Positions 14,924 through 50,864 of a stretch of DNA of 64,000 bases are shown one piece after another; within the stretch, counting starts at the first letter, position 1, and every line of letters begins with the position of its first letter. The position numbers and the translations under genes were made by a program. Origin of the DNA: Prosthecobacter sp. SYSU 5D2 (GTDB lineage: Bacteria; Verrucomicrobiota; Verrucomicrobiia; Verrucomicrobiales; Verrucomicrobiaceae); the NCBI RefSeq assembly GCF_039655865.1, contig NZ_JBBYXL010000009.1:124001-188000 (forward strand), in the 5' to 3' direction. The notes beneath the pieces were generated by a model. It worked only from the letters and a program-made list of their open reading frames with translations, made no database searches and was not told the origin of the DNA.

Positions 14924-14940
14924 TTGGCACGGCGGCTGCA
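14924..14940 (+). promoter_or_regulatory. Sigma-54 (-24/-12) promoter of allophanate hydrolase
   Basis: The sequence TTGGCACGGCGGCTGCA matches the RpoN consensus YTGGCAC-G-N4-TTGCW except for one base (CTGC for TTGC). The invariant GG (14926-14927) and GC (14938-14939) are 12 bp apart. It predicts transcription from about 14951 and a roughly 40 nt leader before the ATG at 14990. A TTG inside the promoter (14924) opens an artefactual longer reading frame. The same element with the same spacing precedes the ammonium transporter at 50848. Confidence 0.72.
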
Positions 14941-14989
14941 TTCTGTGTGCGTGGACAGCGGCTCCGCACCCCCGCCGTCCGCCCTTTGC

Positions 14990-16792
14990 ATGACGCCAGA
15001 TCTCTCCATCGCCACCTTGTTACAGGCTTATCGCAGCGGCACCGCCAGCCCGCAGCAGGTCGTCCTTGCAGCCTGGGAAAGGGCCGCCCAGGATGACCCT
15101 GCCATCTGGATCAACCGTGCCACCTTGCAACAGTTGCAACACCATCTGGCCGCCCTGGACGGTGAATCCCCGGACACCCGGCCGCTCTATGGCATCCCGT
15201 TTGCCATCAAAGATAACATTGACTGCGCGGGCCTGCCCACCACCGCCGCGTGTCCAGACTGGAGCTATGATCCAGAGGAAAACGCCCATGTCGTGGAGTT
15301 GCTGATTCAGGCCGGGGCCATTCCGCTGGGGAAAACGAATCTGGACCAGTTTGCCACCGGGCTGGTGGGTGTGCGCTCCCCTTATGGCATCCCGGAAAAT
15401 GCCTTTGATCCCCGTTACCTGCCCGGCGGCAGCAGCAGCGGCTCCGCTGTAGCCGTGGCAAAAGGGTTGTGCAGCTTCGCCCTGGGCACGGACACAGCCG
15501 GATCCGGCCGGGTGCCGGCCGCCTTTAACAACCTCATCGGCCTGAAGCCGACACGCGGTATCCTCAGTTGCACGGGCGTTGTGCCCGCCTGCCGCACTCT
15601 GGACTGTGTGTCCATCTTTTCCCTGTCTGCTGCGGATGCGGCCCTGGTGCTGGACATAGCGGCTTCTTATGATCCTAAAGATGGTTATGCCAGGAGGCAG
15701 GCACCGTCCAGCCCGCCTGTCTGGCCGCCGCGCATCGCGGTGCCTGCGGCGGAGCAGCTTGATTTTTTTGGCAATGACAGCGCCCGTGAGCTTTTTGAAT
15801 CCGCCATCGCGACCGTCAAGAGCCTGGGCTGGACGGTGGTCGAGACGGACATCACTCCGCTGCTGGATGCGGCGCGGCTTTTGTATGAAGGCCCCTGGGT
15901 GGCGGAGCGTGCGGCAGTCATCAGCAGCCTGCTCACGCTGAACCCGCAGGCTCTCCTGCCGGTCACCCGCAGCATCATTGCCGGCGGGCTGAAAGGCAGC
16001 GCCATGGATGCCTTCAAGGCCCAGTACCGCCTGGCTGATCTGAAGCGCGCCAGCGAGGCCATCTGGGACCGCGCAGATGCCCTGCTGATGCCCACCACAG
16101 GCACGCTTTATACCCTGGCCGAGGTGGAGGCGGAGCCCGTCCAGCTCAACAGCAACCTGGGCCGCTACACCAACTTCATGAACCTGCTGGACCTGTGCGG
16201 ATGCGCCGTCCCGGCAGGGTTTCTGGGGGCCGGCCTGCCCTGGGGCATCACCTTTTATGCTCCCGCTTTTGGTGATGCCTTGGTGCTGGACTGTGCCGCG
16301 CACTTCCATGCGGCGCGCGATCTGCCGGTGGGAAAAACCGCGCTTACCAGCAGCGATCTGCCCCTGCCTGCCGCCGGGTTCGATGAGGAGGAGACGCCCA
16401 TGCTGGCGCTGGCCGTGTGCGGGGCGCACATGGAGGGGCTGGCGCTACATCACCAGCTCAGCAGCCGTGGGGCGCGTCTTTTACAGCGCACGGTCAGCAC
16501 GCCTGTTTACCGGCTCTATTTGCTGCCCGGACATGGCAGCGTTCCTGACCGGCCCGGCATGGTGCGCGTGAGCGAGGGCGGTGCCGCCATTGAGGTGGAG
16601 GTGTGGGAACTGCCGCAGGCCACCGTCGGCTCCTTCATCACCGGCATCGCCGCGCCGCTGGGCCTGGGCAAGGTACAACTGGCGGATGGCACCGCCGTCT
16701 GCGGCTTCATCTGCGAGGGCATCGTGGCGGAATACGCGCAGGACATTACCACCCTCGGGAGCTGGCGGGAATGGCTGCGGCTCACCCAATAA
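14990..16792 (+). CDS. atzF: Allophanate hydrolase (amidase-signature family)
   Basis: This 600-residue cytoplasmic enzyme predictably hydrolyses allophanate (urea-1-carboxylate) to ammonia and CO2. The amidase-signature domain (about 5-430) carries the Ser-cisSer-Lys triad: Lys74 in FAIKDNIDCAG, the GGSSSGS cluster at 146-152, and the nucleophile Ser172 in GTDTAGSGR. The C-terminal domain (about 450-600; LALAVCGAHMEGLALHHQL, then YRLYLLPGHGSVPDRPGMVR) is the allophanate-hydrolase-specific extension that separates it from GatA and other amidases. Total length fits AtzF/DUR1,2-type hydrolases. No urea carboxylase, cyanuric acid or biuret hydrolase gene is adjacent, so the source of allophanate is not shown here. 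The ATG at 14990 was chosen because the longer frame begins in the sigma-54 promoter, which indicates nitrogen control. Confidence 0.9.
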   Translation: MTPDLSIATLLQAYRSGTASPQQVVLAAWERAAQDDPAIWINRATLQQLQHHLAALDGESPDTRPLYGIPFAIKDNIDCAGLPTTAACPDWSYDPEENAHVVELLIQAGAIPLGKTNLDQFATGLVGVRSPYGIPENAFDPRYLPGGSSSGSAVAVAKGLCSFALGTDTAGSGRVPAAFNNLIGLKPTRGILSCTGVVPACRTLDCVSIFSLSAADAALVLDIAASYDPKDGYARRQAPSSPPVWPPRIAVPAAEQLDFFGNDSARELFESAIATVKSLGWTVVETDITPLLDAARLLYEGPWVAERAAVISSLLTLNPQALLPVTRSIIAGGLKGSAMDAFKAQYRLADLKRASEAIWDRADALLMPTTGTLYTLAEVEAEPVQLNSNLGRYTNFMNLLDLCGCAVPAGFLGAGLPWGITFYAPAFGDALVLDCAAHFHAARDLPVGKTALTSSDLPLPAAGFDEEETPMLALAVCGAHMEGLALHHQLSSRGARLLQRTVSTPVYRLYLLPGHGSVPDRPGMVRVSEGGAAIEVEVWELPQATVGSFITGIAAPLGLGKVQLADGTAVCGFICEGIVAEYAQDITTLGSWREWLRLTQ

Positions 16793-16897
16793 GAGGGAAG
16801 ATGGTGTACGTCCATTCCTTGACCAGGGAATGTTGTTGCTTGCCCCCGGCGGCAAATCCGTCGTCAATGCAGGCGAACCTTTTGACCTTCACCTGCC

Positions 16898-17950
16898 ATG
16901 CCCGCCAAACCTTCTGCCGCCCGGAAACCGGACAAAAAAAAGTCCCTCAAGAAAAAGGTGAAGTCTCCAGTGGAGCCCGCTTTGAAATCCGTGCCCTTCT
17001 GGATCGGCTTTGACCTGGGCGGGACGAAGATGCTGGCCTGCGTACTGGATGCGGAATACAACCTGCTGGGCAGCGCCCGCAAGTCCACCAACGGCTCCGA
17101 CGGCCAGATCAAAGGCCGCAAAAAGATCGTCACCGTCATCCATGAGGCCATCGCTGCCGCAGGGGTGGACCCGAAGGGATTGCAGGGCATCGGCATCGGC
17201 TGTCCCGGCCTGGTGAATCCTGACAAAGGCATCCTGCTCAGCGCACCGAACCTGGGCTGGAAAAACATGGGCCTGTCCGGCATCCTGAAGACCGCGTTTA
17301 AAAAACCCGTCGCCGTGCTCAATGACGTGGATGCAGGCACCTTTGGTGAATATAAGCTGGGCTCCGGCAAAGGCGCGCGCTCCCTGCTGGGCATCTTTCC
17401 TGGCACGGGTGTGGGATCCGGTTTTGTCTATGATGGCAAGCTCATCATGGGCCGCAATGTCTCCGCCATGGAACTGGGCATGATTTATATGCCCGGCACC
17501 CACCTGGGCAGCCCCATCCCAGGTGCCGTGCTGCTGGAGGACATGACTAGCCGCCTCGCCATCGCCTCCCAGGCCGGAGTGGCCTGCTACCGGGGCCAGC
17601 TCCCGGACCTGGACAAGAAAACCCGTGGAAATCTGCGCGACATCCGCAGCAAGGCCCTTTCCGCCGCCTACACCACGGGGGAGGAAGCGGCGGTCACCAT
17701 CTTCCGCAATAGTGTAGCCTACCTGGGCATGGGCATCGCTGCCGTGGTCAATTTGCTTGCCCCGGACCACATCACGCTCGGCGGTGGTCTGGTGGAAGAG
17801 ATGCCCCAGCTTTATCTCACCACCCTCAAGGAGGAGGTGAACCGCTACGCCCTGCCCGGCCTCACGCCCGGCATCAAATACTCCATCGCCAAACTGGGCG
17901 GCAGCGCTGTCGCCATCGGCAGCGTCGCCTGGCTGCGCGAGAAAAAGTGA
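16898..17950 (+). CDS. ROK family sugar kinase-like protein, zinc site missing
   Basis: This 350-residue protein has the N-terminal phosphate loop FDLGGTKMLACVLD (about 38-50), GIGCPGLVNP near 99, the catalytic Asp143 in LNDVDAGTFGEY, and the second phosphate motif FPGTGVGSG near 168. This is the ROK (repressor/ORF/kinase) glucokinase layout. Typical ROK proteins have a His after the GE.GH segment and a CxCGxxGCxE zinc motif. Here the corresponding stretch reads ELGMIYMPGTHLGSP and LLEDMTSRL, with no Cys and with Met at the His position. There is no N-terminal winged helix, so it is not a NagC/XylR-type repressor. Instead the first 30 residues are a Lys/Pro-rich tail. It is likely a glucokinase or related sugar kinase of a zinc-free subgroup. 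The substrate is unknown. Confidence 0.82.
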   Translation: MPAKPSAARKPDKKKSLKKKVKSPVEPALKSVPFWIGFDLGGTKMLACVLDAEYNLLGSARKSTNGSDGQIKGRKKIVTVIHEAIAAAGVDPKGLQGIGIGCPGLVNPDKGILLSAPNLGWKNMGLSGILKTAFKKPVAVLNDVDAGTFGEYKLGSGKGARSLLGIFPGTGVGSGFVYDGKLIMGRNVSAMELGMIYMPGTHLGSPIPGAVLLEDMTSRLAIASQAGVACYRGQLPDLDKKTRGNLRDIRSKALSAAYTTGEEAAVTIFRNSVAYLGMGIAAVVNLLAPDHITLGGGLVEEMPQLYLTTLKEEVNRYALPGLTPGIKYSIAKLGGSAVAIGSVAWLREKK

Positions 17951-17989
17951 CCGCCACCACCTAACCAACTTTTCATTTAACCGGATCCT

Positions 17990-18039
17990 CATTTGTCATT
18001 TCGTTCCCGCTTCGCGGGATCATTCGTCATTCGTCATTC
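17990..18039. repeat. Intergenic CATTYGTCATT repeat with TCCCGC-TTC-GCGGGA hairpin
   Basis: The stretch begins CATTTGTCATTTCGT. Then comes the hairpin TCCCGC-TTC-GCGGGA (18005-18019) and the tandem CATTCGTCATTCGTCATTC (18021-18039), ending 11 bp before the ATG of the Ppx/GppA-like gene. The core CATTCGTCA recurs at 56753-56761 and 61839-61847, also in short gaps before gene starts. This suggests a small dispersed repeat rather than a site specific to one gene. Confidence 0.5.
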
Positions 18040-18050
18040 TGCCTTTGTCC

Positions 18051-19595
18051 ATGTCCGACCTGCCGCCGCCACCGTCCACTGAGCACGCCATCATCTATGT
18101 GGGTGCCGCCTCGCTCTCCCTCATCATCGGCACCCGTACGGACTCCGGCAGCTTCAGCCTGCTGGAGCATCTGGACAAGCCTCTCCCCATCGCCCGCGAC
18201 ATCTTCCGCCAGGGCAGCATCACCCGCTCCACGGTAGAGCAGGCCGCTGGCATCCTGAAGGACTACCTGCTGACCGTCCGCGAATACGGCCTGCCGCTGG
18301 CCAACGTGCGACTGTACAACACGAACATCCTTTCCGAGGCGGCCAACCACGAGATCTTCCTGAATCGCCTCCAGGTGAGCACCGGCCTCATCGCGCGGCT
18401 GATTGACGATGGCGACATGACGCGTCTGGTTTACCAGATCGGCCTGCGCATGCTGAAAAAGAACCCTTCCCTGCGTGAGGGCCACACCTTTGTCTCCCAC
18501 ATCGGCCCCGGCAACACGCGTGCGCTTTATTTCAAAAACGGCCGCCTTTCCACTTATAGCAACTACCGGTTAGGCATCTACCGCGCTCGTGAAGCCGTGG
18601 CCGGTGCGGATGGTGAGGCTGCCCAGCATCTGAACCACCTGGAAGAGCATATCCGGGGCGTGGTGGACCACCTGGCCCAGGATTACTCCGGTTATCAAAT
18701 TGACAACCACGTGGCCATCGGTGCGGAGATCCAGAGCGTCGCCGCCGAGCTGGCCAGCGCCCGGCAGGGTGCCTTCCGCATCACCGAAACAGAGCTGGAA
18801 CGCTTCACCGAAAGCCTGGCCCAGCTGAATCCGGACGAGCTGGTCCGCAAGCTGCACGTCCACTACACCGGCGGTGAGGGCATCATCCCCGCACTGCAGA
18901 CGAACCTGGCCCTGGCACGCCGTTTTGGCGATGAAGCACTGTGGGTGCCGGAGGGCGACTTCCAGCGCGAACTCATGCTGGACCTGATGACCGCCAGCCC
19001 GCTGACCGCCAACTTCCAGGATGAAGTGGTCCAGGCGGCCTGCGAGATCGGCGTGCGCTACAAGACCGACCGCAAGCATGCCGACCATGTGGCCGCCTTT
19101 GCCCAGCAGCTTTTCCGCGAGCTGCAGCACCTGCACGCCCTGGACCCCAAATACGAGCTCGTCCTCCGCGTCGCCGCCGTGCTGCATGAGGTGGGCATGT
19201 TCATCAGTCCGCGCGAGCACCACAAGCACAGCCTGTACATCCTTTTGCAAACGGAGATCTTCGGACTTAGCACCGCCGACCGTGAAATGGTGGCCCTGCT
19301 GGCCCGCTACCACCGCCGTTACAACCCGGAGCCGAACCACCCGACCTTCTCCGACCTGACCCGTGAGGAGCGCATGATCGTCTTCAAACTGGCGGCCCTG
19401 CTGCGCATCGCCGATGCCCTGGACCGCACCCATGCTCAGCGCATCAAGACCATCCAGCTCCGCCCCGAAGGCAGCCGCCTGAACATCCTCACCCCCGGCG
19501 TGGATGATACCACCGTCGAGCAGATCGCCATCAACTCCAAGTGTGACCTCTTCCGTGAGATCTACGGCTTCGATGTGCTGCTGACGAAAGGCTGA
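18051..19595 (+). CDS. Ppx/GppA phosphatase-like protein with C-terminal HD-type domain
   Basis: This protein has 514 residues from the ATG at 18051; a TTG two codons upstream also fits. The N-terminal half (to about 300) has the ASKHA fold order of exopolyphosphatase/pppGpp phosphohydrolase: a strand IIYVGAASLSLIIGT, YNTNILSEAANHEIFLNRL near 85, and a second lobe ending in the HVHYTGGEGIIPA segment. The C-terminal half (about 320-500) is HD-domain-like (HADHVAAFAQQL, LRVAAVLHEVGMFIS, LLARYHRRY). It departs from the family in two places: the phosphate loop GSNS(V/I)R is GAASLSL, and the HD pair reads His-Glu. It may therefore bind rather than hydrolyse polyphosphate or (p)ppGpp. It ends 6 bp from the convergent Uma2 gene. 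A CHAD gene lies 3 kb upstream. Confidence 0.8.
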   Translation: MSDLPPPPSTEHAIIYVGAASLSLIIGTRTDSGSFSLLEHLDKPLPIARDIFRQGSITRSTVEQAAGILKDYLLTVREYGLPLANVRLYNTNILSEAANHEIFLNRLQVSTGLIARLIDDGDMTRLVYQIGLRMLKKNPSLREGHTFVSHIGPGNTRALYFKNGRLSTYSNYRLGIYRAREAVAGADGEAAQHLNHLEEHIRGVVDHLAQDYSGYQIDNHVAIGAEIQSVAAELASARQGAFRITETELERFTESLAQLNPDELVRKLHVHYTGGEGIIPALQTNLALARRFGDEALWVPEGDFQRELMLDLMTASPLTANFQDEVVQAACEIGVRYKTDRKHADHVAAFAQQLFRELQHLHALDPKYELVLRVAAVLHEVGMFISPREHHKHSLYILLQTEIFGLSTADREMVALLARYHRRYNPEPNHPTFSDLTREERMIVFKLAALLRIADALDRTHAQRIKTIQLRPEGSRLNILTPGVDDTTVEQIAINSKCDLFREIYGFDVLLTKG

Positions 19596-19601
19596 TGCGG
19601 C

Positions 19602-20282
19602 TCACTCCGCCCCTGCCAGCATGCCGCGCAGAGCCAGCAGGTTTTCGGCTTCGTCAAACACCGCCCGCACGGAGATATCGAATCCCGGGATGACATCGCT
19701 GCTTAGCAGGCCCTCCGTCTGTGCCGGAACGGGCGGATAGGCATCTCCCGACAGCCGGTACAGCTCCACCGTCTCCGCCGCCGGATCCACGATCCAGTAT
19801 TCTCCCACGCTATGCAGAGCATAGTCCTCGAACTTCACCCCCCGATCCCGCTTTTCCGTGGACGGTGACAGCACTTCCACGATCAGATCCGGTATCGGAA
19901 AGCGCAGTGTATCGGGGTCAATGACAGCGAGCTTGGCCTCACCGAAAAACATGACATCCGGCTCGTAATCGTTGCGAGGGAAAGAGGTCATCGCCTTTTC
20001 CGAATGCACCAGTCCAAGCTGCCTTACCCGCACATAAGTATCCATCAGCGCCATTAGGCGTTTGGTTGCCATCAGGTGCCGGTTCGCAGCCGGGGAGTGC
20101 ATGATGACTTCGCCCTGGATGAACTCCCATTTGTGCTCCGGGGTGATGTCCTGGTAAAACTTCTGCCTCAGCTTCTGCTCACGTGCCCACGCGCGCTGCG
20201 CCTCCTGAATAAGTTCAGGCAGCACGGGGGAATTCATCAGAGAATCGAATAGCGCGGTGCTCACAACTAAAGAAAATGCCAT
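19602..20282 (-). CDS. Uma2 family (DUF820) putative endonuclease
   Basis: This 226-residue protein has the restriction-endonuclease-like Uma2 pattern. It includes KWEFIQGEVIMHSPAANRHL near 60, NDYEPDVMFFGEAKL near 105 (the PDV Asp), IPDLIVEVLSPSTEKRDRGVKFEDYA near 128 (the Glu-x-x-SPST and Lys region), and GEYWIVDPAAETVELYRL near 165. Uma2 proteins are common in cyanobacteria and other bacteria, and their physiological role is unclear. An internal ATG at 20237 (MNSPVLPELI) is an equally good start. The gene follows the sulfatase operon by 51 bp and could be its last cotranscribed member, but no function links them. Confidence 0.85.
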   Translation of the reverse strand: MAFSLVVSTALFDSLMNSPVLPELIQEAQRAWAREQKLRQKFYQDITPEHKWEFIQGEVIMHSPAANRHLMATKRLMALMDTYVRVRQLGLVHSEKAMTSFPRNDYEPDVMFFGEAKLAVIDPDTLRFPIPDLIVEVLSPSTEKRDRGVKFEDYALHSVGEYWIVDPAAETVELYRLSGDAYPPVPAQTEGLLSSDVIPGFDISVRAVFDEAENLLALRGMLAGAE

Positions 20283-20333
20283 ACCTGGCCGCTGCTGTAA
20301 AGTCCGCAGGCAGGCCCGCCAGCCAGCCTCTGG

Positions 20334-21779
20334 TCACTTGGCTTTTTTGTTCTTCTTGCCTTTCGGACGCGGCGGCTCGGACGCGATTTTGGCGCCATTG
20401 TCCTCCGGCATGGAGCGGTGCCAGGCGACGGCGGCGGTGGTCAGGCGTTTCACCAGTTCGGGCTCTTTGGCGGCCAGATCGGTTGTTTCAGCCCGGTCGC
20501 GCGCCAGGTCGTAGAGTTGGGGTTGGCTGCCGTCGTAGTCACAAAGCAGCTTCCATTTGCCCTCGCGCATGGCCAGGTCCGGCTGGGCGGCGGGAACCAT
20601 GGGTGCCCAGAATTTCCGGTCGGGTGGACGCCGCCAGAAAAGCGGGGCCTGCCGTCCGCCTTCACTGCGGCCTGTCAGGGCGGCCGAGACATCCTCGCCA
20701 TCAAAGGCCACGTCCGCAGGGGCGCTCGCGCCTGCCAGCTTCAGCAGCGAAGGCACCAGGTCAAAGGCTGCAAACACCGTGGTCTCATCATGCGTGCCCC
20801 CTTTTCCATCTGCGATGACACCCGGCCCCCAGACGACCAGGGGTGAGCGGATGCCGCCTTCATAAATCTGTGTCTTGTGCCCACGGAACGGACCGGCGCT
20901 GCCCGCACCTGGCTCCGGTCCGTTGTCAGAGCAGACCAGGACCAGTGTATTGTCCCGCAGCTCCGGCGTACTGCGGATGTGATCAAACAGGCGGCCAAAC
21001 TGCCGGTCCATCTCCTCCAGAACGGAGAGATACAGGCCACGCTTGTCATCCGCCCATTTGCCCACCGGCGGCCAGTAAGGGCTGTGCACATCATCCGGCC
21101 ACAGGTTGACATAAAACGGCTTCTTGGCCGCCACCGCCTTTTTCATAAAGGGCAGCGCCGCATCAATGAAACCGCTGGTGATCTCCGACCGCTGCATCCA
21201 TGTCACCGGTTTTCCCAGGCGCTCGGCATCGCCCCAGATCTTCCCCGGTGCGATATCGCCGGGCTTCAGGGTCAGCGGCAGGAGCTTTGGCCCCATACCC
21301 TCAAAGTTTGTTAGACTTTCATCAAAGCCATAGGCCGTGATGGGGGGGGCATCATCCACATCGCGCTGGCCGCCAAGATGCCATTTGCCGAAATGGCCGG
21401 TGGCATAACCGTCCGCCTGCAGATACCGCGCCAGCGTGGGCGCCTGCGGATCCAGCCACTGGGCCACCCCGCGCCTATCATTCTCCGCGCGGTTGTTGAG
21501 GAACGAGGTGATCCGCCAGCGCTGCGGGTACTGCCCGGTCGTCAGCGCACAGCGGGAGGGCGAGCAGATGGGCGAGTTCACATAGAACTGTGAAAACCGA
21601 ATTCCCTCGGCCGCCAGACGGTCCACATTTGGCGTCTTCGCATCGGCATTGCCAAAGCAGGAAAAATCCCCCCAGCCCATGTCATCAATGAAGACCATGA
21701 CGATGTTGGGTCGCTGCTCCGCCGCAAATGCGGAGCCAAACATAACAAACAACGTAACAATGGATAAAAGCCGTTTCAT
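20334..21779 (-). CDS. Secreted sulfatase (S1 family, Cys-type)
   Basis: This 481-residue protein has a signal peptide (MKRLLSIVTLFVMFGSAFAA). The metal-binding DD pair is in VFIDDMGWGDFSCFGN near 31, and the formylglycine site is Cys72 in SPICSPSRCALTTG. GKWHLGG at 131 and CSDNGPEPGAG near 293 complete the S1 alkaline-phosphatase-superfamily active site. It should release sulfate from a carbohydrate sulfate ester after Cys72 is converted to formylglycine. The C-terminus is a Lys-rich tail (PKGKKNKKAK). This is the last sulfatase of the minus-strand operon, starting 6 bp after the stop of the previous gene, so the two are tightly coupled. The substrate cannot be read from the sequence. Confidence 0.93.
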   Translation of the reverse strand: MKRLLSIVTLFVMFGSAFAAEQRPNIVMVFIDDMGWGDFSCFGNADAKTPNVDRLAAEGIRFSQFYVNSPICSPSRCALTTGQYPQRWRITSFLNNRAENDRRGVAQWLDPQAPTLARYLQADGYATGHFGKWHLGGQRDVDDAPPITAYGFDESLTNFEGMGPKLLPLTLKPGDIAPGKIWGDAERLGKPVTWMQRSEITSGFIDAALPFMKKAVAAKKPFYVNLWPDDVHSPYWPPVGKWADDKRGLYLSVLEEMDRQFGRLFDHIRSTPELRDNTLVLVCSDNGPEPGAGSAGPFRGHKTQIYEGGIRSPLVVWGPGVIADGKGGTHDETTVFAAFDLVPSLLKLAGASAPADVAFDGEDVSAALTGRSEGGRQAPLFWRRPPDRKFWAPMVPAAQPDLAMREGKWKLLCDYDGSQPQLYDLARDRAETTDLAAKEPELVKRLTTAAVAWHRSMPEDNGAKIASEPPRPKGKKNKKAK

Positions 21780-21785
21780 AAAGTC

Positions 21786-23159: not shown

Positions 23160-23179
23160 ATAAGTCTCCATGTTATTGT

Positions 23180-23869: not shown

Positions 23870-23875
23870 CGTTTG

Positions 23876-26349: not shown

Positions 26350-26360
26350 GATATTTTGTT

Positions 26361-40333: not shown

Positions 40334-40365
40334 AAACGGAGCCGTCCCCACGGCTCCGTTTTTTT
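40334..40365 (+). terminator. Rho-independent terminator
   Basis: The stem ACGGAGCCGT-CCCC-ACGGCTCCGT is followed by a run of T. It lies 35 bp after the stop of the ferredoxin reductase-like gene and isolates it from the PEP-CTERM gene. Confidence 0.92.
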
Positions 40366-40486
40366 ATGCTTATGCGGGAGGGGCAATGCGCCAGTGGCGG
40401 GAAATGATACTTCCATGCTCAAAACGGGCTGAGGGCGGGCGCATGGACTGAGTCATGCTTTGCGAAAGGCTCCCCCTCCGCTCTTT

Positions 40487-43400: not shown

Positions 43401-45055
43401 CCACCAGCGTGCTCCGCCCCGGCACTGGCAATGAACTGGTCATCATACAAAACAACACCCAAGGCGTGCTGAATCTGGTGGGCAAGATCAACAACAATAC
43501 CGCCGGAGGCACCACCGCTCTCGTCAAAGATGGCCCCGGCACCGTCGTCATCGTTGCTCCAGGCCCCTACCTCACCGGCGAAAACTACTCCGGTGATACC
43601 CGCATCCAGAACGGCACGCTCCAGCTCACCTCTGGCACCGGCGCCGCCATCACCTACCCGGTCTATCATTCCGCTTCCTTTGTCCTAGGCTCTGGCAGCA
43701 ATAGTGGCAAGCTCGTCCTGGGCAGTGGCACTGTGCCCATCACTCAATACGGCGGCTTGTTCACCCAAGGCACCGGCACGGCCAATGCCGTCGTCGGCGG
43801 CAGCACCGCCTACTCCACCTTCCTCACCTACCGCTCCGGCACCTTTGACTTCCGCACCGGCTTCCTCGGCGGCCCGGGTGAAAATGAAAACAATCTTAAC
43901 CTGACCATCAGTGTCGGCACCACCCAGCTAGGTCCCGTCAATACCTACAAAGGCAAGACCAGCATCGCCCGCAACACCGTCGAAGTCACCTCCCTGGCCG
44001 ATACCGGCATGCCCAGCTCCCTGGGCACCGGTGACTTCAATGCGGCGGCGGCGATCATTGACTTTGCCACCGCCACCACCAGTGCAGTGAATGTGGATCT
44101 CGTCGCCACACTCCGTTACATTGGCGATGGCGACTCAGTGACCAACCGGCCTCTCAACATGACCAATTCAGACGTCATCCGGGACACCCGCACCGTCACC
44201 ATGAACCTGGAAAACACCGGCCATGGAACGGTGAAATTCACCTCCCCCTTCACCACGGGTGGCAACAATCTGGCCCCCCGCACCCTGCGCCTGGGCGGCA
44301 GCAATACGGGCGCCAATGAAATCGTCAGCATCAGCAATGCCACCAACGTCAACGTCCCTGGCTTGATACTGGAAAAATTCGGCACCGGCACCTGGGTGAT
44401 GACCGGCAGCAGCACCCACACAGGCGGCACACTCATTACCGAGGGCACCCTGCTGACCCGCAATGACAGTCTCCCCGGCTCCGCCACGGGTCTGGGTGCC
44501 GTGGCCGTTTCTGCCGGTGCCACCCTTGGCGGCACGGGCCGCATTGCCCCGGCGGCGGACCTGTCCATCACCCTCACGGGCGGCACTCTCAGCATTGGCG
44601 ACAGCACACTGGAGACACTGATTGCCGGAAAACTGGAAATCCTCACTTCCGGCACAGGCGGCCTTTTGTTTGAAGCCGGCTCCATCCTCGCATTGGACCT
44701 CTTTTCAGGAGCAGGCAGCGGCATGGACCAGTCCGCCAATCCTGCGGCCGCTGACCTCCTCACCGTCTCTGGCACCGTGGATCTCGGCACCGGCACCCTC
44801 CTGCAAGTTGGCAATCCGAATGGAATGAGCAGCTACACCTATGGAGACCAATGGCAGCTCTTCGACTGGAGCGGACTCGCAGGCCCCGTTCAGGGCACCT
44901 TTGCCGACACCCTTCTGCCCACCCTCAATCCCGGCCATTCCTGGGATCTCAGCCCGCTCTACACCGGCGGTTTCATCACCGTCGTCCCGGAGCCTTCCCG
45001 CGCACTGCTTTTGCTCTGTGCCATGGTGGGTCTTTGCATTCTCCGCCGTCGTTAA
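40487..45055 (+). CDS. Autotransporter-repeat surface protein with PEP-CTERM sorting signal
   Basis: This protein has 1522 residues from the ATG at 40487; a TTG at 40460 is an alternative. The signal region is SPRLVLMAAAMLTLPTLVAQ. The long body is rich in Gly, Thr, Ser and Asn with autotransporter-associated beta-strand repeats (GTGTWVMTGSSTHTGGTLI, GPGTVVIVAPGPYLTG), predicting a right-handed beta-helix passenger. It ends FITVVPEPSRALLLLCAMVG followed by LCILRRR: the PEP motif, a hydrophobic helix and basic residues, which together are the exosortase/PEP-CTERM tail. No beta-barrel translocator domain is present. Two internal blocks, near 332-390 and 760-815 of this reading, are near-duplicates (APAxxIxY ... 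TGKSGxxNSQTF). No exosortase gene lies in the window. Function: surface structure or adhesin, inferred. Confidence 0.88.
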   Translation: MFCLTSPRLVLMAAAMLTLPTLVAQTPVYIWDGNPATAGVIDNTAGNWTAPNWYDGTGYQTWNPAAIAQFGAATSSAGAAITVNEAITLAGMNFRPFTSLPSANRAYSFTGTGSLNFTAGSIIDVASGTTNGSSGFITFAVPLVGNDLTFSKADGTALGYMTFSAASPDLTGTLFLKTTGTATAGIYASIVAARFTGLDAIDIEAGSMIATSGAGNFDIPLIIAGNGGSQWGAIRVGSSSTNFTEGITLSGDARFHTHINVNSTTVSSVISETAGGSKAFNRTAFSPVNTLLPLAATFTAANTFTGNTILGRTFNLGSTSETSATEGGLTILDFSATGAPANDIFYNGTAKGGLIMNGGLATTTKLHMTGKSGTDNSQTFSSLHIQQGANAIEAFSATGGSITVALGDITRTEVSSLAIRGPASGSITGTLGGSGNGFIGPWATYTTADGSSATWASLKDGAVSAFTGETEYETGTLLSSDASSHLRISSLSTGDVSLATGTTTVGTFSMTDAAARQIGAVTDQTLRLGVDGGIQMINGAASLTVGIAGQSSTLTAGGADDTAGQVILTNLSSNGTLMVNSSITNNGSGAVSLMINGTGRTILTAASSFTGMVGIYSGVLEIRDSLALGTTTGTVTKVITGASLNLAGDLTLAESLQINGHGIASDGAIRNLSGTNTITSLVRVQSSSRISSDSGTLILSGGISATNSGTSVTFSGAGDIEMNSNITTTSGLLIKDGPGSLTLRGTSTATGNSLLNMGRLHLDFSGTTAPASNILYSTAPAGAILSMGNGSMLELTGKSGATNSQTFTNLTLTTAGSYRISANQNDAASLSLNFNTLTRPAAALVRFDLPTTGSFTTTSGVDNAILATTTGIPYATVGLNDWAATTAAVSSRRNIVGLSSLDLYTPSTFDTLSGHADAIVPLTTLTADASISTLRFNLPQATTITQDAPGRTLTTGGILVTPEVGAHDTTISTSVLRPGTGNELVIIQNNTQGVLNLVGKINNNTAGGTTALVKDGPGTVVIVAPGPYLTGENYSGDTRIQNGTLQLTSGTGAAITYPVYHSASFVLGSGSNSGKLVLGSGTVPITQYGGLFTQGTGTANAVVGGSTAYSTFLTYRSGTFDFRTGFLGGPGENENNLNLTISVGTTQLGPVNTYKGKTSIARNTVEVTSLADTGMPSSLGTGDFNAAAAIIDFATATTSAVNVDLVATLRYIGDGDSVTNRPLNMTNSDVIRDTRTVTMNLENTGHGTVKFTSPFTTGGNNLAPRTLRLGGSNTGANEIVSISNATNVNVPGLILEKFGTGTWVMTGSSTHTGGTLITEGTLLTRNDSLPGSATGLGAVAVSAGATLGGTGRIAPAADLSITLTGGTLSIGDSTLETLIAGKLEILTSGTGGLLFEAGSILALDLFSGAGSGMDQSANPAAADLLTVSGTVDLGTGTLLQVGNPNGMSSYTYGDQWQLFDWSGLAGPVQGTFADTLLPTLNPGHSWDLSPLYTGGFITVVPEPSRALLLLCAMVGLCILRRR

Positions 45056-45073
45056 AACGATGCCCCTTCATGA

Positions 45074-45103
45074 AAAAAGGCAGACCTCGCGGCCTGCCTT
45101 TTT
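45074..45103. terminator. Bidirectional Rho-independent terminator
   Basis: AAAAAGGCAG pairs with CTGCCTTTTT across a 10 nt loop. A- and T-runs on both sides let it serve the PEP-CTERM gene (plus) and the convergent sugar isomerase-like gene (minus). Confidence 0.88.
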
Positions 45104-45132
45104 ATGAATCATGAATCCAAGGCAACGTCGGC

Positions 45133-45996
45133 TCAGGCCACGATCGGGTGCAGGTTCTCCTTGCACCACTCACCGTTCTGGATGGTCACGCCATCAGGAT
45201 CGTCCACGGCCACGTGGGCTTCATCTTCACAGATGATCCAGCCTTCATAATCACGGGCCACCAGCCATTCGGTGATCTTGTGGAAGTCCAGCTTGCCGGT
45301 GCCCATCTGCGCCCAAGGCTCAGGACCGTTGCCGGAGTAGTCCTTGTAATGGATGTGGTTCACCAGGTGCTGAAACTTGTTCAGCGTGGCGATGACATCC
45401 ATGCCGCCACGGATGATGTGGCCCACGTCCGGGGTCCAGCCCGTCACCTTCGGGTCCAGGCTGCTCAGCACCACATCGTAGTCCTCCTGTGTGCGGACGA
45501 TGGAGGCTGGCGGGCTGTTGGGATGGTAGGAGGCCTTGATGCCCAGGTCGGCGGCGCGCTTGGACACATTGTTGACATTGCGCGCCACATTCAGGCGGCG
45601 GCGCTGCAGGTCGTTCTTGCGGCCGCTTGGCAGCGTCACCGTGCCCAACATGGCACCGGGGAAATGTTGGAGCAGTTCCAGGGTGAAATCCGCCGCTTCC
45701 TTCTCTGCAGGAGTCTCCTCTTCAGCATCCCAGGCGCAGACGAGAGCCAGGCCCGCGAGCTTGATGTTGTGCTTTTGCAGCGCGTCCTTCAGGCGGACGG
45801 GATCGCAGAAATCCCCCAGCCAGTAGCGGCCGCAGCCCAGGGCGCTTTCAGAAATCTCGAGCACCATCGGCTCGATGCCTGTAAAGCCCGCCTTCGCGGC
45901 CACTTCGATCATATGATCCAGTTTGTTATCATAGCCCTTGCCGGTGCCCTGCATGAACCAGGTATAGACCTGGGAGCCGAATTCGATTTTTGCCAT
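45133..45996 (-). CDS. Sugar phosphate isomerase/epimerase-like TIM barrel (AP endonuclease 2 fold)
   Basis: This 287-residue cytoplasmic protein starts MAKIEFGSQVYTWFMQGTGK. Family strands carry the metal ligands: GFTGIEPMVLEI (Glu near 42), IKASYHPNSP (His), GWTPDVGHIIRGGMD (Asp-x-x-His), VNHIHYKDYSG (His-x-Lys) and GWIICEDEAHVAVDDP (Glu). The layout is that of IolE/inosose dehydratase, xylose isomerase-like and related sugar isomerases. Relatives act in keto-sugar metabolism and are often found with DUF1080 proteins. A link to the sulfatase/DUF1080 locus 10 kb away is only suggestive. It is divergent from the HAD-folB-sigma operon. Confidence 0.85.
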   Translation of the reverse strand: MAKIEFGSQVYTWFMQGTGKGYDNKLDHMIEVAAKAGFTGIEPMVLEISESALGCGRYWLGDFCDPVRLKDALQKHNIKLAGLALVCAWDAEEETPAEKEAADFTLELLQHFPGAMLGTVTLPSGRKNDLQRRRLNVARNVNNVSKRAADLGIKASYHPNSPPASIVRTQEDYDVVLSSLDPKVTGWTPDVGHIIRGGMDVIATLNKFQHLVNHIHYKDYSGNGPEPWAQMGTGKLDFHKITEWLVARDYEGWIICEDEAHVAVDDPDGVTIQNGEWCKENLHPIVA

Positions 45997-46146
45997 AGGA
46001 TGGATGCGGTCGGTTATAAGTTTGGAAGTCAGAAAAACGCGCCGGTCGGCCAGCGCGCCGCTATTGGAAACGACGCGTCACGCGATGTCCAGCAGCGAAT
46101 TTTCATCCCGCGTTGCACAAACCGGCTTTCCCGGCATATAAGCGCC

Positions 46147-46785
46147 ATGATCCGCAATCTCATCCTCGACTGGTCCGGCACGCTGGCAGACGACCTCGGT
46201 GCTGTCATCACAGCCACCAACAAGGTCCTGGCCCATTACGAAAAGCCGGCTTTTACGCGGGAGCAGTTTCGCGAAGTTTTCCAGCTGCCCTACACCGAAT
46301 TTTACCGTCACATCCTGCCAGATGTGCCCCTGGCTACATTGCAGGCGCTTTATCTGGAGCATTTTCCCGGCGAGGACCAGCACGAGGTGCCAATGATTGA
46401 GCACGCCCTGGATTTCCTCCAGTTCGCCGCTGATACGGGCCGCCGCATGTTCGTGTGCAGCAGCGCCCCGCTGGAGCATGTGAGCGCCCAGGCGGCCAGC
46501 AATGGCGTCTCCCACTTCTTTGAGCACCTGCACTGCGGCATCATTGACAAGTGCACCCATGTTCATGAACTGCTCCGCCAGCATCACCTCCTGCCGCAGG
46601 AGACCGCCTTCATCGGGGACATGCGGCACGACATCCTGGCCGGACGTGCGGCAGGGCTGACCTCCATCGCCACCGCCACGGGTTATGAATCCGTGAGCAC
46701 CCTGCTGACGGCCGAGCCGGACATCCTGGTGAGAAATCTGTCGGCTTTGACACGTCTGATGCAATGTCCCACAGTAACGGCATGA
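46147..46785 (+). CDS. HAD-superfamily hydrolase (phosphoglycolate phosphatase/phosphonatase-like)
   Basis: This protein has 212 residues from the ATG at 46147; the frame is open far upstream, but that part is antisense to the isomerase gene. Motif I reads ILDWSGTLADD: Asp8 is the nucleophile, but the second Asp of the usual DxD is Ser10, so the pattern resembles the phosphonatase-type DWxGT. A helical cap follows. Motif II is in MFVCSSAPLEHVS and motif IV in FIGDMRHDILAGRAAG (GDMxxD). Without the second Asp, ordinary phosphatase activity is uncertain. The gene's ATGA overlap with folB shows translational coupling in a four-gene operon ending with an ECF sigma factor and a membrane protein. 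Confidence 0.83.
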   Translation: MIRNLILDWSGTLADDLGAVITATNKVLAHYEKPAFTREQFREVFQLPYTEFYRHILPDVPLATLQALYLEHFPGEDQHEVPMIEHALDFLQFAADTGRRMFVCSSAPLEHVSAQAASNGVSHFFEHLHCGIIDKCTHVHELLRQHHLLPQETAFIGDMRHDILAGRAAGLTSIATATGYESVSTLLTAEPDILVRNLSALTRLMQCPTVTA

Positions 46786-47147
46786 CCTCTCCCGCCTCTT
46801 TTGCAGATGAAATCCACCTTCAAGGGCTGGATCTGCCTGTGCAAATTGGTGTGCCGGAAGAGGAGCGGGCCGCCTGGCAGACCCTCCAGGCAGATGTCAC
46901 CCTGTGGCTCCCGAACCGGTTTGAGACGATGGCGGACGACCTCACACAGACTGTGGACTATGCCGCCGTGGCCATTCGCCTCCGCGCTCTCGCCGCAGAG
47001 CGGCCCCGCAGGCTCATTGAGACTTTAGCTGCCGAAATGGCGCAGTGCCTCATCACTGAGTTTCAACTTCATACGGCCAAAGTGACCCTCCGCAAACGTA
47101 TTCTACCTGGCTGTGATCATGTGGCTGTGAGCCTCACCCGGCCATGA
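46782..47147 (+). CDS. folB: Dihydroneopterin aldolase (FolB)
   Basis: This protein has 121 residues from the ATG at 46782, which overlaps the previous stop as ATGA; an ATG at 46764 would add six residues. The sequence IHLQGLDLPVQIGVPEEERAAWQTLQADV has the G-V/I-x-x-x-E pattern of DHNA (Glu of IGVPEEER). TVDYAAVAIRLRALAAERPRRLIETLAAEMA is the D-Y-x-x-V ... LIE-x-LA core, and KVTLRKR...L the last strand with the catalytic Lys region. It converts dihydroneopterin to hydroxymethyl-dihydropterin in folate synthesis. The pairing of a folate gene with an ECF sigma gene, again by ATGA overlap, is unusual. Confidence 0.88.
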   Translation: MTSPASFADEIHLQGLDLPVQIGVPEEERAAWQTLQADVTLWLPNRFETMADDLTQTVDYAAVAIRLRALAAERPRRLIETLAAEMAQCLITEFQLHTAKVTLRKRILPGCDHVAVSLTRP

Positions 47148-47854
47148 ATCAACCCCCAGCCCCCAAGAAAAGCTTGTCTCACTCCCCGATGAATGGTTTG
47201 CTTGAAAAACCGCGCGAAACGGATCGCGAGGACAGCGGACTCATGGAGACGACCACGGATCAGCCCCCAGCAAGCAACAGCGCCGCGGAAGACCGTGCGC
47301 TTGTCGAGCGCGCCCAGGCCGGGGACACCCGGGCGTTTGATGAACTGATCCGCAAATACACGCCCAAGCTTTATGGTCTGGTTTACAACATGACCTCCAA
47401 CCGGGAGGACACGGCGGATCTTTTGCAGGATATTTTTGCCAAAGCCTACCGCTCATTAAAGCGGTTCATGGGAAAATCCTCCTTTTACACCTGGATTTAC
47501 TCCATCTCGGTGAACATGACGCTGAATTTCCTCAAAAAGAGGGGCCGTCACGCCAAAGTCAGCCTGGATGACGTGGACAGCGGCATTCACAACGACCCGG
47601 ACTTCATCAGCATCACCACAGCGAACCGCGACACCATACGCGAGGTGAACATCCATGAGCTGCAAAAAAGATTGAACGACGCCATGATGAAGCTGTCAGA
47701 AGACCACCGCACGGTAGTCACGCTCTACGACGTCCAGGGCCTTCAGCACAACGAGATCAGCAAGATTCTCGGGGTGTCAGAGGGCACTGTGAGGTCCAGG
47801 CTTTTCTACGCGCACCGGCTCCTCCAGACTTATTTGGAAGATTTTGTAAAGTGA
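47144..47854 (+). CDS. ECF (RpoE-like) RNA polymerase sigma factor
   Basis: This protein has 236 residues from the ATG overlapping the folB stop. In-frame ATGs at 47189 and 47243 would shorten a Pro/Ser-rich N-terminal extension of about 45 residues. Region 2 is FDELIRKYTPKLYGLVYNMT with DLLQDIFAKAYRSLKRFMGK, then SSFYTWIYSISVNMTLNFLKKR. Region 4 is LSEDHRTVVTLYDVQGLQHNEISKIL followed by GVSEGTVRSRLFYAHRLL, a clear helix-turn-helix. It directs RNA polymerase to an unknown regulon. The next gene encodes a small single-pass membrane protein in the usual anti-sigma position. Confidence 0.92.
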   Translation: MNQPPAPKKSLSHSPMNGLLEKPRETDREDSGLMETTTDQPPASNSAAEDRALVERAQAGDTRAFDELIRKYTPKLYGLVYNMTSNREDTADLLQDIFAKAYRSLKRFMGKSSFYTWIYSISVNMTLNFLKKRGRHAKVSLDDVDSGIHNDPDFISITTANRDTIREVNIHELQKRLNDAMMKLSEDHRTVVTLYDVQGLQHNEISKILGVSEGTVRSRLFYAHRLLQTYLEDFVK

Positions 47855-47905
47855 CACGATTCTTGCTAACTGATCAAGTTCCCGCCAAACTCCGACGCAC
47901 TACCT

Positions 47906-48421
47906 ATGAACGAATTCGAGAACATCCAAAGGCTGCTTCGACTGAAACAGTATGAGACTCCTGGTGATGACTTTGTGGAAGACTTCGTAACCCAGTTCCG
48001 TGAGCGGCAGCGCTCCGAGATTTTGCGGATTTCCTCACGTGATCTTCTTTGGGAGCGTGTGAACACCTTCTTCAGTGACCTCGTTTCCCCAAAGTGGGCC
48101 ACCGCTGCGGCCACCGCAGCTTTCGCCATCGCCGCCGCATGGGGCACACTGAATGTCATCGGCGGCAGCCAGCAGGGCGGCAACGACTTTACCATCGCTT
48201 CCGCTGACGCTGTGCCTGCCATCTTACAAAAACAGCCCGCTTTTGCCGTGGACAGCGAGCTGATTCAGAAAGCTCTGCCTCAGGATGAAGTCCTGGAATT
48301 TAGCGGCATCCTTCTGAGCCAGCATTTTGAAGGTGAGCAGTTCGCCTCTTCGGCCTTGCCAGAAAACCTGGCCACGCCGGTCTCCGCCGGGCTTTTGCCG
48401 ATCAGCGACTTCGGCCGCTGA
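47906..48421 (+). CDS. Single-pass membrane protein in anti-sigma position
   Basis: This 171-residue protein has an N-terminal cytoplasmic part of about 65 residues, rich in charged helix (FENIQRLLRLKQYETPGDDFV, FVTQFRERQRSEILRISSRD). One transmembrane segment follows (WATAAATAAFAIAAAWGTLN, about 68-87). The periplasmic tail is about 80 residues (ILLSQHFEGEQFASSALPEN). No HxxxCxxC zinc anti-sigma motif is present. Position directly after the ECF sigma gene (51 bp gap) and the topology suggest a regulator or anti-sigma partner. This is inference, and I do not recognise a named family. A strong terminator follows. Confidence 0.7.
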   Translation: MNEFENIQRLLRLKQYETPGDDFVEDFVTQFRERQRSEILRISSRDLLWERVNTFFSDLVSPKWATAAATAAFAIAAAWGTLNVIGGSQQGGNDFTIASADAVPAILQKQPAFAVDSELIQKALPQDEVLEFSGILLSQHFEGEQFASSALPENLATPVSAGLLPISDFGR

Positions 48422-48441
48422 TTCCATCCGCATCCATTCTT

Positions 48442-48475
48442 AAAGGGCAGAGGCTGATCCCTCTGCCCTTTTTTT
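48442..48475 (+). terminator. Rho-independent terminator
   Basis: The stem AAAGGGCAGAGG pairs with CCTCTGCCCTTT around a 6 nt loop and is followed by further T residues. It ends the HAD-folB-sigma-membrane protein operon 20 bp after its last stop. Confidence 0.9.
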
Positions 48476-48496
48476 GTGTAACGTCCAGAAACAAGC

Positions 48497-49390
48497 TCAG
48501 TGCCCGGCGTTTTCTGCCGTCTCATCAGGATCTGTGTCCTCGATCTTGGCCTCTGCCTTGAGCTGGGCGATGAGTTCGTTAAACTTCGCGTCCTTGTGCG
48601 CTTCCAGCAGACGCTGGCGCACCGCCTCCTTGACAGCATCAAAAGGGATCGCCTCGGGTGCCTTGCGGCCCAGCACGGTGCAGAGGTGGAACCCTAGCTG
48701 AGTGGTAAAGACGGGGCTGATCTCCCCCTCCCCCATGGAAAAGGCGATGACCTCAAACTCCTCCATGAACTCTCCCCTCTTGAACCAGCCCAGGTCAATC
48801 TGCTGCTGGTCATCTGCCCGGTTTTCCTCCGCCAGTTTCATGAAATCCGCACCGGCCAGAAGCTGGCTGCGCAGTTCACGCATGCTTTTGAAGACCTCAT
48901 TGCGGCTCTGGGCGCCCTGGAGGTTTTTGGTAATGTGGGCCACATGGATCATCTCCTCCGTCATGTAGAGCGCCAGATCCCGCTCATAGGCGGCTTTGAG
49001 TTCCACTTCTGTGAAGTCAGGATCGGGGCCGTAAATTTCCCCCAGCATCTTGTCCAGCCGCACGCCGCCCTGCACATTTTCCCGCACGATTGCCTCATCC
49101 TTGAAGGGCATGCCGATGTTCAGATAAAACTGGTCCTCACCGCCAGCGGCCTCGATCAGCTTCTCCAGCCGCTGCGTCACATCCTCTTCCGAGATGGTGG
49201 GAAAGCGGCGCATGGACTCCTGGTTGAGCAGCACGCGGGAGGCGATGTTATCCTTCGCATAACCGCGGAACTCCTGGTCCCGCTCGCAGCAGGCCACCTG
49301 CAGCATGCGCTCATAGTGCCCCTTCACATTGCGGAATTCTCCCTCAATGACTTCGTCGTCAATTTCTTCGCCGTTGATGATCAGTGCCAT
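48497..49390 (-). CDS. Parvulin-type peptidyl-prolyl isomerase (NifM/SurA-like), no signal peptide
   Basis: This protein has 297 residues from the ATG at 49390; the frame is open upstream but the extra residues look random. An N-terminal helical chaperone part (MALIINGEEIDDEVIEGEFR, ... GYAKDNIASRVLLNQESMRR) precedes the PpiC rotamase domain at about 145-250. That domain shows MIHVAHITKNLQGAQSRNEV, GADFMKLAEENRADDQQQID, LGWFKRGEFMEEFEVIAFSM and SPVFTTQLGFHLCTVLGR. No export signal is visible, unlike SurA and PrsA, which fits the cytoplasmic NifM-like subgroup. No nitrogenase gene is present. The acidic C-terminus (DTDPDETAENAGH) is of unknown use. Confidence 0.83.
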   Translation of the reverse strand: MALIINGEEIDDEVIEGEFRNVKGHYERMLQVACCERDQEFRGYAKDNIASRVLLNQESMRRFPTISEEDVTQRLEKLIEAAGGEDQFYLNIGMPFKDEAIVRENVQGGVRLDKMLGEIYGPDPDFTEVELKAAYERDLALYMTEEMIHVAHITKNLQGAQSRNEVFKSMRELRSQLLAGADFMKLAEENRADDQQQIDLGWFKRGEFMEEFEVIAFSMGEGEISPVFTTQLGFHLCTVLGRKAPEAIPFDAVKEAVRQRLLEAHKDAKFNELIAQLKAEAKIEDTDPDETAENAGH

Positions 49391-49470
49391 GACGCATTCG
49401 GAGCGCGGACGAAGGTGACAAGCAAGATGAAAAATGCCCTTCCTCCGCCGCCATCCGTGGGCACTCAGGG

Positions 49471-49500
49471 TTGACACCCGGCTGCGTGGAGTCCTACATA
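49471..49500 (+). promoter_or_regulatory. Sigma-70-type promoter of the D,D-carboxypeptidase gene
   Basis: TTGACA (49471-49476), an 18 bp spacer and TACATA (49495-49500) lie about 38 bp before the chosen start at 49538. Confidence 0.45.
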
Positions 49501-49537
49501 ACCAACATTATTCATAAAGGCATTAAACTTGCGCCCC

Positions 49538-50569
49538 ATGATGAACGTTACCCTTTTCCCCCCCAGTATGTTCACTTCCTTTTCACGCTTTTTCACCCTC
49601 GCCTCCGCAGGTGTGCTGCTGAGCCTGCTGCCCTCCTGCTCAGCCCCTCAAAAGACTGTCCGCTCAGCGGGTGACTTCAGTGGCAACGGCTCCGCCGGAT
49701 ATGTGCAGACCGGTTATTCCAGCGCCTATCCATCGGCCACGCTCACCCCGGCCACCTACAGCCCAGGCTGGGATGTGGAAGCCGCCCCCCGTTATGCCGC
49801 CGCCTCCAATACTCCCTCCATCCGCGCGGCCTCATACCTTCTCATTGATGCACAGACCGGCAGACATCTCGCATCCAAGAATGCCGAAACCGCCCGTGCT
49901 GTGGCCAGCACGCAAAAGCTTGTCACCGCGCTTGTGATCCTGGATGCCGGGAATTTGGACAAAACCGTCACCGTGACCGCTTCGGATATTAAAGTGGAGC
50001 CCACCTGCCTGGGCCTGCGCCCTGGTGAACGCTACACCCGCAGGCACCTCTTGTACGCCTTTTTGATCAAGAGCTGCAATGACGTGGCCAATGTCCTCGC
50101 CCGTGACAATGCCGGCAGCATCGCCGCCTTTTCCGCCAAGATGAACGCCAAGGCACGCTCTCTGGGCTGCACCAATTCCAACTTCAAAAATCCCCATGGC
50201 CTCACCGCCAGCGGCCAGTATTCCACCGCCCGTGACATGGCCCGCGTGGCCATGGCCGCCTACCGCAATCCGGTCATCCGCGATGCCGTGCGCCGCTCCT
50301 CTTACACCTTCAGGAAAAACAGCGGCTCCACCGTCACCCTCAAAAGCACCAACCACCTGCTGGGCTCCATGCCGGAGTGCAATGGTATGAAGACGGGTTA
50401 TACCATCGCCAGCGGACGCTGCCTCATCTCCACCGCCAGCTACCGCGGGCGGGATGTCATCCTGGTGCAGCTGGGCACCCAGACCAAATACATCTGGGAT
50501 GATGGCCGCCTGCTGATGAGCTGGGGCCTGCAGCGCGCCAAAAGCGGCGGCCTGACGGCTTCCCGCTGA
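49538..50569 (+). CDS. D-alanyl-D-alanine carboxypeptidase (peptidase S11, PBP5-like), probable lipoprotein
   Basis: This protein has 343 residues from the ATG at 49538 (ATG at 49541 and TTG at 49529 are alternatives). The signal region VLLSLLPSCSAPQ has a lipobox-like LPSC with Cys34. The three penicillin-binding motifs are clear: SxxK as Ser124-Thr-Gln-Lys127 in ARAVASTQKLVTALVIL, SxN as Ser179-Cys-Asn181 in FLIKSCNDVANVLA, and KTG at 285-287 in CNGMKTGYTIASG. It trims D-Ala from peptidoglycan side chains. A Gly/Ser/Tyr/Pro-rich linker at 40-95 separates the lipid anchor from the enzyme. The C-terminal PBP5 beta domain is absent, so it is a short member. Confidence 0.9.
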   Translation: MMNVTLFPPSMFTSFSRFFTLASAGVLLSLLPSCSAPQKTVRSAGDFSGNGSAGYVQTGYSSAYPSATLTPATYSPGWDVEAAPRYAAASNTPSIRAASYLLIDAQTGRHLASKNAETARAVASTQKLVTALVILDAGNLDKTVTVTASDIKVEPTCLGLRPGERYTRRHLLYAFLIKSCNDVANVLARDNAGSIAAFSAKMNAKARSLGCTNSNFKNPHGLTASGQYSTARDMARVAMAAYRNPVIRDAVRRSSYTFRKNSGSTVTLKSTNHLLGSMPECNGMKTGYTIASGRCLISTASYRGRDVILVQLGTQTKYIWDDGRLLMSWGLQRAKSGGLTASR

Positions 50570-50696
50570 GAAAAGCCCCAGCTCCCAGCGCGCGGCTGCG
50601 CCTGGACAAGAACGCCTCACCGGCGTTTCCCAAAGGCACGAATTCAATGGAAAAGGCCTCCGCCTGCCCAAGACCGTGCCCGGGCCCCTTCACGCC

Positions 50697-50754
50697 CTGA
50701 CCGTGGTCAGCACCGCATAACAAATGATTAAACCGGCAGAGACCGGCCTGGTCT
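50697..50754 (+). promoter_or_regulatory. Candidate enhancer-binding dyads upstream of the sigma-54 promoter
   Basis: CTGACC-GT-GGTCAG (50697-50710) and AGACC-GGCCT-GGTCT (50740-50754) share GACC/GGTC half-sites. Their centres lie 43-44 bp apart, about four helical turns. They lie roughly 95-150 bp upstream of the -24 element, where NtrC-type activators normally bind. The activator itself is not in the window, so this is inference from position and symmetry. Confidence 0.4.
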
Positions 50755-50834
50755 GACCGCACTTTTTGTTATCCAGGCCCCCGCCGGCATCCTGCAAGCA
50801 CCCAAAATCAGAGGCTTTCATTTTTTTGAAATCA

Positions 50835-50858
50835 CGCCGTGCCAATTTTGGCACGGCG
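50835..50858. repeat. 24 bp palindrome overlapping the -24 element
   Basis: CGCCGTGCCAA, two central T, then TTGGCACGGCG is a perfect 11 bp inverted repeat. Its right arm is the -24 region of the sigma-54 promoter. The mirror arm on the minus strand lacks a correctly spaced -12 GC, so only the plus orientation is a promoter. Confidence 0.75.
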
Positions 50859-50864
50859 CTTGCT
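50848..50864 (+). promoter_or_regulatory. Sigma-54 (-24/-12) promoter of amt
   Basis: TTGGCACGGCGCTTGCT is a complete match to the RpoN consensus YTGGCACG-R-N3-TTGCW. GG at 50850-50851 and GC at 50862-50863 are 12 bp apart. The following gene is an ammonium transporter, a classic nitrogen-limitation target. A near-identical element precedes allophanate hydrolase at 14924. Confidence 0.88.

Follow-up and report, generated by a model that had tools for sequence, protein, structure and literature searches.

In a 64,000-nucleotide stretch of the genome of Prosthecobacter sp. SYSU 5D2 (contig NZ_JBBYXL010000009.1, positions 124,001 to 188,000; hereafter the window), two exact −24/−12 motifs of the sigma-54 (RpoN) type precede amt, encoding an ammonium transporter, and atzF, encoding an allophanate hydrolase. 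From comparison with related genomes we consider it probable that both are promoters of one small nitrogen regulon, which would comprise at least amt, a second amt gene (amt3), the P-II gene and atzF, and that the atzF site was inherited from the coding end of a carboxylase gene formerly upstream of it. Systems of this kind are already known; new here are the phylum and the possibility that one promoter originated in a coding end. Control of nitrogen genes by sigma-54 has been studied extensively in Proteobacteria and would in this way be extended to Verrucomicrobiota on comparative evidence, with a testable regulon named: amt, amt3, P-II, atzF and perhaps rpoN itself. If the history proposed for atzF is true, one can still read from the DNA how a promoter came down from protein-coding sequence once the gene itself had gone.

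The two motifs and the amt promoter

Both motifs were read directly on the forward strand, TTGGCACGGCGCTTGCT at 50848-50864 before amt and TTGGCACGGCGGCTGCA at 14924-14940 before atzF, and are real, exact and non-random. In each, 10 nt separate GG from GC, which fits TGGCAC-N5-TTGC. Counted from its first base, the motif lies 76 bp from the ATG of amt (50924) and 66 bp from that of atzF (14990); between its last base and the ATG there are 59 and 49 bp, respectively. A first-pass annotation of this DNA had reported the motifs, their positions, their identical GG/GC spacing and a distance of 50-75 bp from the ATG; all are present as described, the distances being about right, and the gene identities that it gave are borne out by profile scores (Table 1).

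With the strict pattern TTGGCACGG-N4-TGCW, the window gives two matches and shuffles 0.0. The loose pattern TGGCAC-N5-TTGC with two mismatches is at chance level (94 seen, 102 expected); such loose counts are uninformative in GC-rich DNA and were not used as evidence. The genome-wide scan that had been proposed earlier gave exact matches only before nitrogen genes: in the whole 5.87-Mb genome of the window's species (G000, 99.98% complete), TTGGCACG-N5-TGCW is found three times, before atzF, before amt and, 67 bp from the start, before amt3 on contig C12. One-mismatch matches are not more numerous than in a reversed control (52 versus 47).

To this the amt site adds conservation across species. 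An orthologous group of 16 amt genes was compared: that of the window together with 15 from elsewhere in the order, at 57-91% protein identity. GG-N10-GC was required of each upstream site, along with a match to the consensus at 11 or more of 14 bases. All 16 orthologues have such a site, compared to a mean of 0.23, and at most 2, in shuffled upstreams, and none of the 14 members of the amt2 paralogue clade reaches a score of 11. Among amt loci in named genomes, grouped by record title, a score of at least 10 was found in 9 of 12 from Verrucomicrobiota versus 7 of 68 others (Fisher p 8e-6). The amt site can accordingly be regarded as a secure sigma-54 promoter, as firm as sequence permits.

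A perfect inverted repeat, GCCGTGCCAA-TT-TTGGCACGGC, overlaps the −24 element of amt. We rejected it as an operator or a divergent promoter. The orthologues compared do not have it, so that the promoter would not need it, and the other strand is without a −12 element. It is formed by a mirrored copy of the −24 element a few bases upstream (CCGTGCCAA..TTGGCACGG), which is seen at amt (50836-50857) and at the Ro60 gene described below (L006, ~1488-1509) and was not seen at the P-II, amt3 and atzF sites.

We found no meaning in the 36-kb linkage of amt and atzF. Conserved synteny of the two was not found, and only these two genes and one 110-bp stretch align to a relative's contig.

Sigma-54 machinery and further candidate members

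The genome has two different rpoN genes, both with DNA-binding, core-binding and activator-interacting domains, and rpoN1 has a sigma-54-like site, TTGGCCCGCTTATTGCT, 44 bp upstream of its own start. Matches to the activator family number 16, several of them other AAA+ proteins; seven are strong matches to sigma-54 activators, and a GAFTGA or GSFTGA loop was read out in six open reading frames (ORFs). A k-mer and palindrome search for a common activator site before amt yielded only terminator-like hairpins and T-runs, which were rejected as candidates.

Three amt paralogues are present and two of them, amt and amt3, are preceded by exact sites. The single P-II gene (C10) has a one-mismatch site, TTGGCACGGATTTGGCT, 96 bp before its ATG. 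An internal positive control is provided by TTGGCACGGTCCTGGCA, which precedes a Ro60/Rsr gene divergent from the gene for an RtcR activator; sigma-54 promoters are known from this divergent arrangement in other bacteria, and in the window genome the site stands before the Ro60 gene as in RtcR-controlled rsr (Ro60) operons. Taken together, these observations support a sigma-54 nitrogen regulon, apparently larger than the amt and atzF pair by amt3 and P-II. The shared RpoN regulon of the first-pass annotation is upheld by the two rpoN genes, the activators, the conserved amt site and the restriction of the exact motif to nitrogen genes, with P-II as an addition; what has to be qualified is the weight placed on the atzF motif, whose match is weaker evidence than had been assumed.

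Other one-mismatch sites before gene starts, besides those of P-II and rpoN1, include sigma-54-like sites directly upstream of an Hsp20 gene and of a transglutaminase/DUF2126 gene (L222 = G000:C1:30578; L221 = G000:C1:7797). These two genes are possible further members of the regulon.

A pair made up of a CHASE-domain hybrid kinase and a sigma-54 activator (L198:4109-8031 and L194:6970-10874) resembled a dedicated atzF regulator. In the relative G005 the pair flanks atzF and a divergent urt operon, and its activator is 81% identical to that of the window genome (C1). Here, however, the pair lies beside a thiamine-pyrophosphate (TPP) enzyme gene, and the same TPP family neighbours atzF in G034, so that a mere insertion of atzF at that spot may account for the proximity.

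The atzF site and the lost carboxylase operon

The start of atzF given by the ORF tool, TTG 14924, overlaps the motif, while orthologues align from residue 1 at ATG 14990, supporting the latter as the start codon. The same correction had been made earlier from the promoter, and it was right, but it is shown by homology rather than by the promoter. Compared to its orthologue in G068, atzF has a nonsynonymous rate (dN) of 0.18 and a synonymous rate (dS) of 1.2, that is a dN/dS of ~0.15, and a branch length like those of its relatives, which indicates that it is under purifying selection.

In five relatives (G018, G068, G058, G059 and G071) atzF, at 69-75% protein identity, shares bases with the stop codon of the preceding gene, which encodes a urea/guanidine carboxylase of ~1200 residues (TIGR02712). 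The operon in G018 consists of an ATP-binding cassette (ABC) transporter, a DUF1989 pair, the carboxylase and atzF, and the ORF layout is the same in G068 and G071. The window genome is without the carboxylase (CT_A_B/CT_C_D), without the urease alpha subunit, which is present in all eight relatives searched (G005, G018, G019, G034, G058, G068, G069 and G071), and without the urea transporter UrtA, present in seven of the eight. Judged by these absences, the window species has lost its urea-use genes, leaving an intact orphan atzF. Since there is neither carboxylase nor urease, allophanate must have another source, and the "urea/allophanate use" suggested in the first-pass annotation does not fit this genome, which lacks urease, urea transporter and urea carboxylase. 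Matches to the Rfam family 5_ureB_sRNA were seen on the urease genes of relatives (L280:1601-1890, L184:18148-18440); these are probably coding-sequence similarity and not a conserved small RNA.

In the five relatives the bases aligned to the window's motif read CTGGCAC(G/A)GTGGCTGC(G/A) at −76 and encode GTVAA in the biotinyl domain of the carboxylase. Because the atzF motif coincides with coding sequence there, its match alone is weaker evidence for a promoter; a lost upstream gene can leave behind a perfect consensus match beside a start codon. The leader of atzF, read in one frame, gives IP......GTAAAFCVR-GQ...TP versus IPVSSTCAGTVAALHVREGQSVTP in G018. The score of its alignment to the G018 tail was reached by 2 of 5000 shuffles, and p is ~0.001-0.004 over the region; we consider it probable, short of proof, that the leader is what remains of the carboxylase 3' end. 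The motif has been kept in the window at 13-15 of 17 bases versus 20-23 of 61 in the flanks (p 0.0002-0.006). In the sequences of four relatives, synonymous conservation of the GTVAA codons is 0.80 versus 0.45 for the whole gene (p 0.0016 by amino-acid-matched resampling; 0.0145 compared to the gene's tail), and synonymous sites are near saturation between the species compared. Moreover, in G018 and G068 the operon itself is headed by a sigma-54-like site, at 57-58 bp from its first gene, and all five genomes of the set in which atzF stands without the carboxylase (G000, G005, G019, G034 and G069) have a sigma-54-like motif just upstream of it. The site's place among only three exact matches, the synonymous conservation, the retention of motif relative to flanks and these last sites suggest that the atzF site is probably functional.

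We propose that RNA polymerase with RpoN would bind the −24/−12 elements and await an AAA+ activator, itself predicted, which would fire under nitrogen shortage. The atzF site would descend from a sigma-54 site that already lay within the final codons of the carboxylase gene upstream; the operon would then have been deleted in the window lineage with the site retained, one base nearer the consensus, and atzF would have stayed under sigma-54 control. We infer three things here, namely use of the sites by the RpoN holoenzyme, nitrogen shortage as the signal and prior activity of the site inside the carboxylase gene. That the last carboxylase codons served both as protein code and as a sigma-54 promoter of the next gene, and that this promoter survived deletion of the operon as a free-standing one, is the boldest part of the proposal; we think it quite possible but stop short of calling it probable.

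Several results weigh against the proposal. On the NtrC equivalog model TIGR01818 the activators scanned all score below the cut-off (320-444 versus 558.6), so that the NtrC-type activators sought by the first-pass annotation are represented by GAFTGA-type activators below NtrC level, and no activator-binding site upstream of amt was shared or conserved in the k-mer and palindrome search; for these two reasons we do not file the set as an NtrC regulon. With a profile of the carboxylase tail, the atzF leader is the best match in the window but not a significant one (E 0.26), and it ranks third in wider stretches of the same genome; the case for homology of the remnant, over ~70 bp, is built on position and alignment and makes no use of the profile score. 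The synonymous-conservation test draws on four sequences only, and the likeness of the carboxylase DNA to the consensus may be coincidence, because the biotinyl motif leaves few of its bases free to vary.

In a different explanation, only amt, with amt3 and P-II, is sigma-54-controlled and the atzF motif is a dead leftover of the carboxylase, atzF being read from the CHAD-domain gene or from an unseen promoter. The aligned bases are indeed coding in five relatives and constrained by the conserved biotinyl domain, and the CHAD gene ends 107 bp upstream of the atzF ATG on the same strand. However, all three exact matches in the genome precede nitrogen genes, the motif was kept while its flanks decayed, and comparable sites precede atzF in other genomes without the carboxylase; with synonymous sites near saturation, an unconstrained remnant should not hold 13-15 of 17 bases unless the loss was recent. 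We regard a dead leftover as unlikely. Slightly more credible, though still improbable, is a real sigma-54 promoter of atzF with a separate origin, which resembles the carboxylase tail through convergence on the consensus. Likeness outside the motif, with the motif held fixed, is modest (p ~0.01) and not significant in the upstream flank, and the sites in G005, G019, G034 and G069 lie in DNA without a carboxylase gene. Against convergence stand the similar place relative to atzF (−66 versus −76), the spacer bases in common, and GTGCGTG downstream and the GCATGA junction, which are also shared. An origin of both motifs by chance, given the GC-rich genome, would agree with the chance-level loose patterns in the window and with the one-mismatch totals equal to the reversed control, but is very hard to reconcile with conservation in 16 of 16 amt orthologues and with zero-mismatch sites only before nitrogen genes; for amt it is already contradicted. 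We therefore retain a nitrogen regulon that includes an inherited atzF site as the favoured explanation.

Table 1. Positions of the genes and sites discussed (window coordinates unless a locus is given)
Feature	Position	Strand	Evidence or remark
atzF, allophanate hydrolase, 600 residues	14990..16792	+	PF01425 and PF21986; TIGR02713 751 bits versus cut-off 511; start by orthologues; dN/dS ~0.15 to G068
Sigma-54-like (−24/−12) site of atzF, TTGGCACGG-CGG-CTGCA	14924..14940	+	exact motif; relatives encode GTVAA of carboxylase 3' end there
Probable remnant of a urea/guanidine carboxylase gene: its 3' end, eroded (biotinyl domain)	14902..14989	+	frame and alignment to G018
CHAD-domain gene, now directly upstream of atzF where the carboxylase operon stands in relatives	13974..14882	+	PF05235 62 bits
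amt, ammonium transporter, 483 residues	50924..52375	+	PF00909 372 bits; TIGR00836 385 bits, above cut-off
Sigma-54 (−24/−12) promoter of amt, TTGGCACGG-CGC-TTGCT	50848..50864	+	exact motif; all 16 orthologues compared in the order have an equivalent
Perfect inverted repeat GCCGTGCCAA-TT-TTGGCACGGC overlapping the amt −24 element	50836..50857	.	sequence
rpoN1	L238 = G000:C4:308087-308560	-	first of two different rpoN genes
rpoN2, 533 residues, longer than rpoN1	L188:6235-7836 (G000:C9)	-	convergent with histidine-kinase/activator pair

Comparison with known systems

In Proteobacteria, NtrC and RpoN control the glnK-amtB and urea-use promoters. The candidate regulon described here is alike in having −24/−12 elements with GG-N10-GC before ammonium transporter and P-II genes, together with rpoN and AAA+ activators. 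It differs in that P-II is unlinked to the amt genes, of which there are three with exact sites before two, and in having two rpoN genes and no scanned activator at the level of the NtrC equivalog model. Experiments on such promoters in Verrucomicrobiota were not found in the literature searched.

The operon of the relatives resembles in gene content (G018; layout in G068 and G071) the guanidine/urea carboxylase operons, which encode an ABC transporter, carboxyguanidine deiminase, carboxylase and allophanate hydrolase (PMC12186494). Unlike these, the relatives' operons gave no guanidine riboswitch at gathering thresholds and have a sigma-54-like site at the operon head, and the window species keeps only atzF.

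Sigma-54 binding and promoters have been mapped in E. coli (PMC4591121, PMC8743547), where intragenic sigma-54 promoters drive the next gene in nagB->nagE, yqeC->yqeB and rlmD->relA (PMC4591121). The carboxylase site would be similar to these as a conserved, sense-direction sigma-54 site inside one gene that is proposed to drive the next. The E. coli promoters have 5' leaders of 360-760 nt, whereas here ~76 bp separate the site from the next start, and the window species no longer has the host gene.

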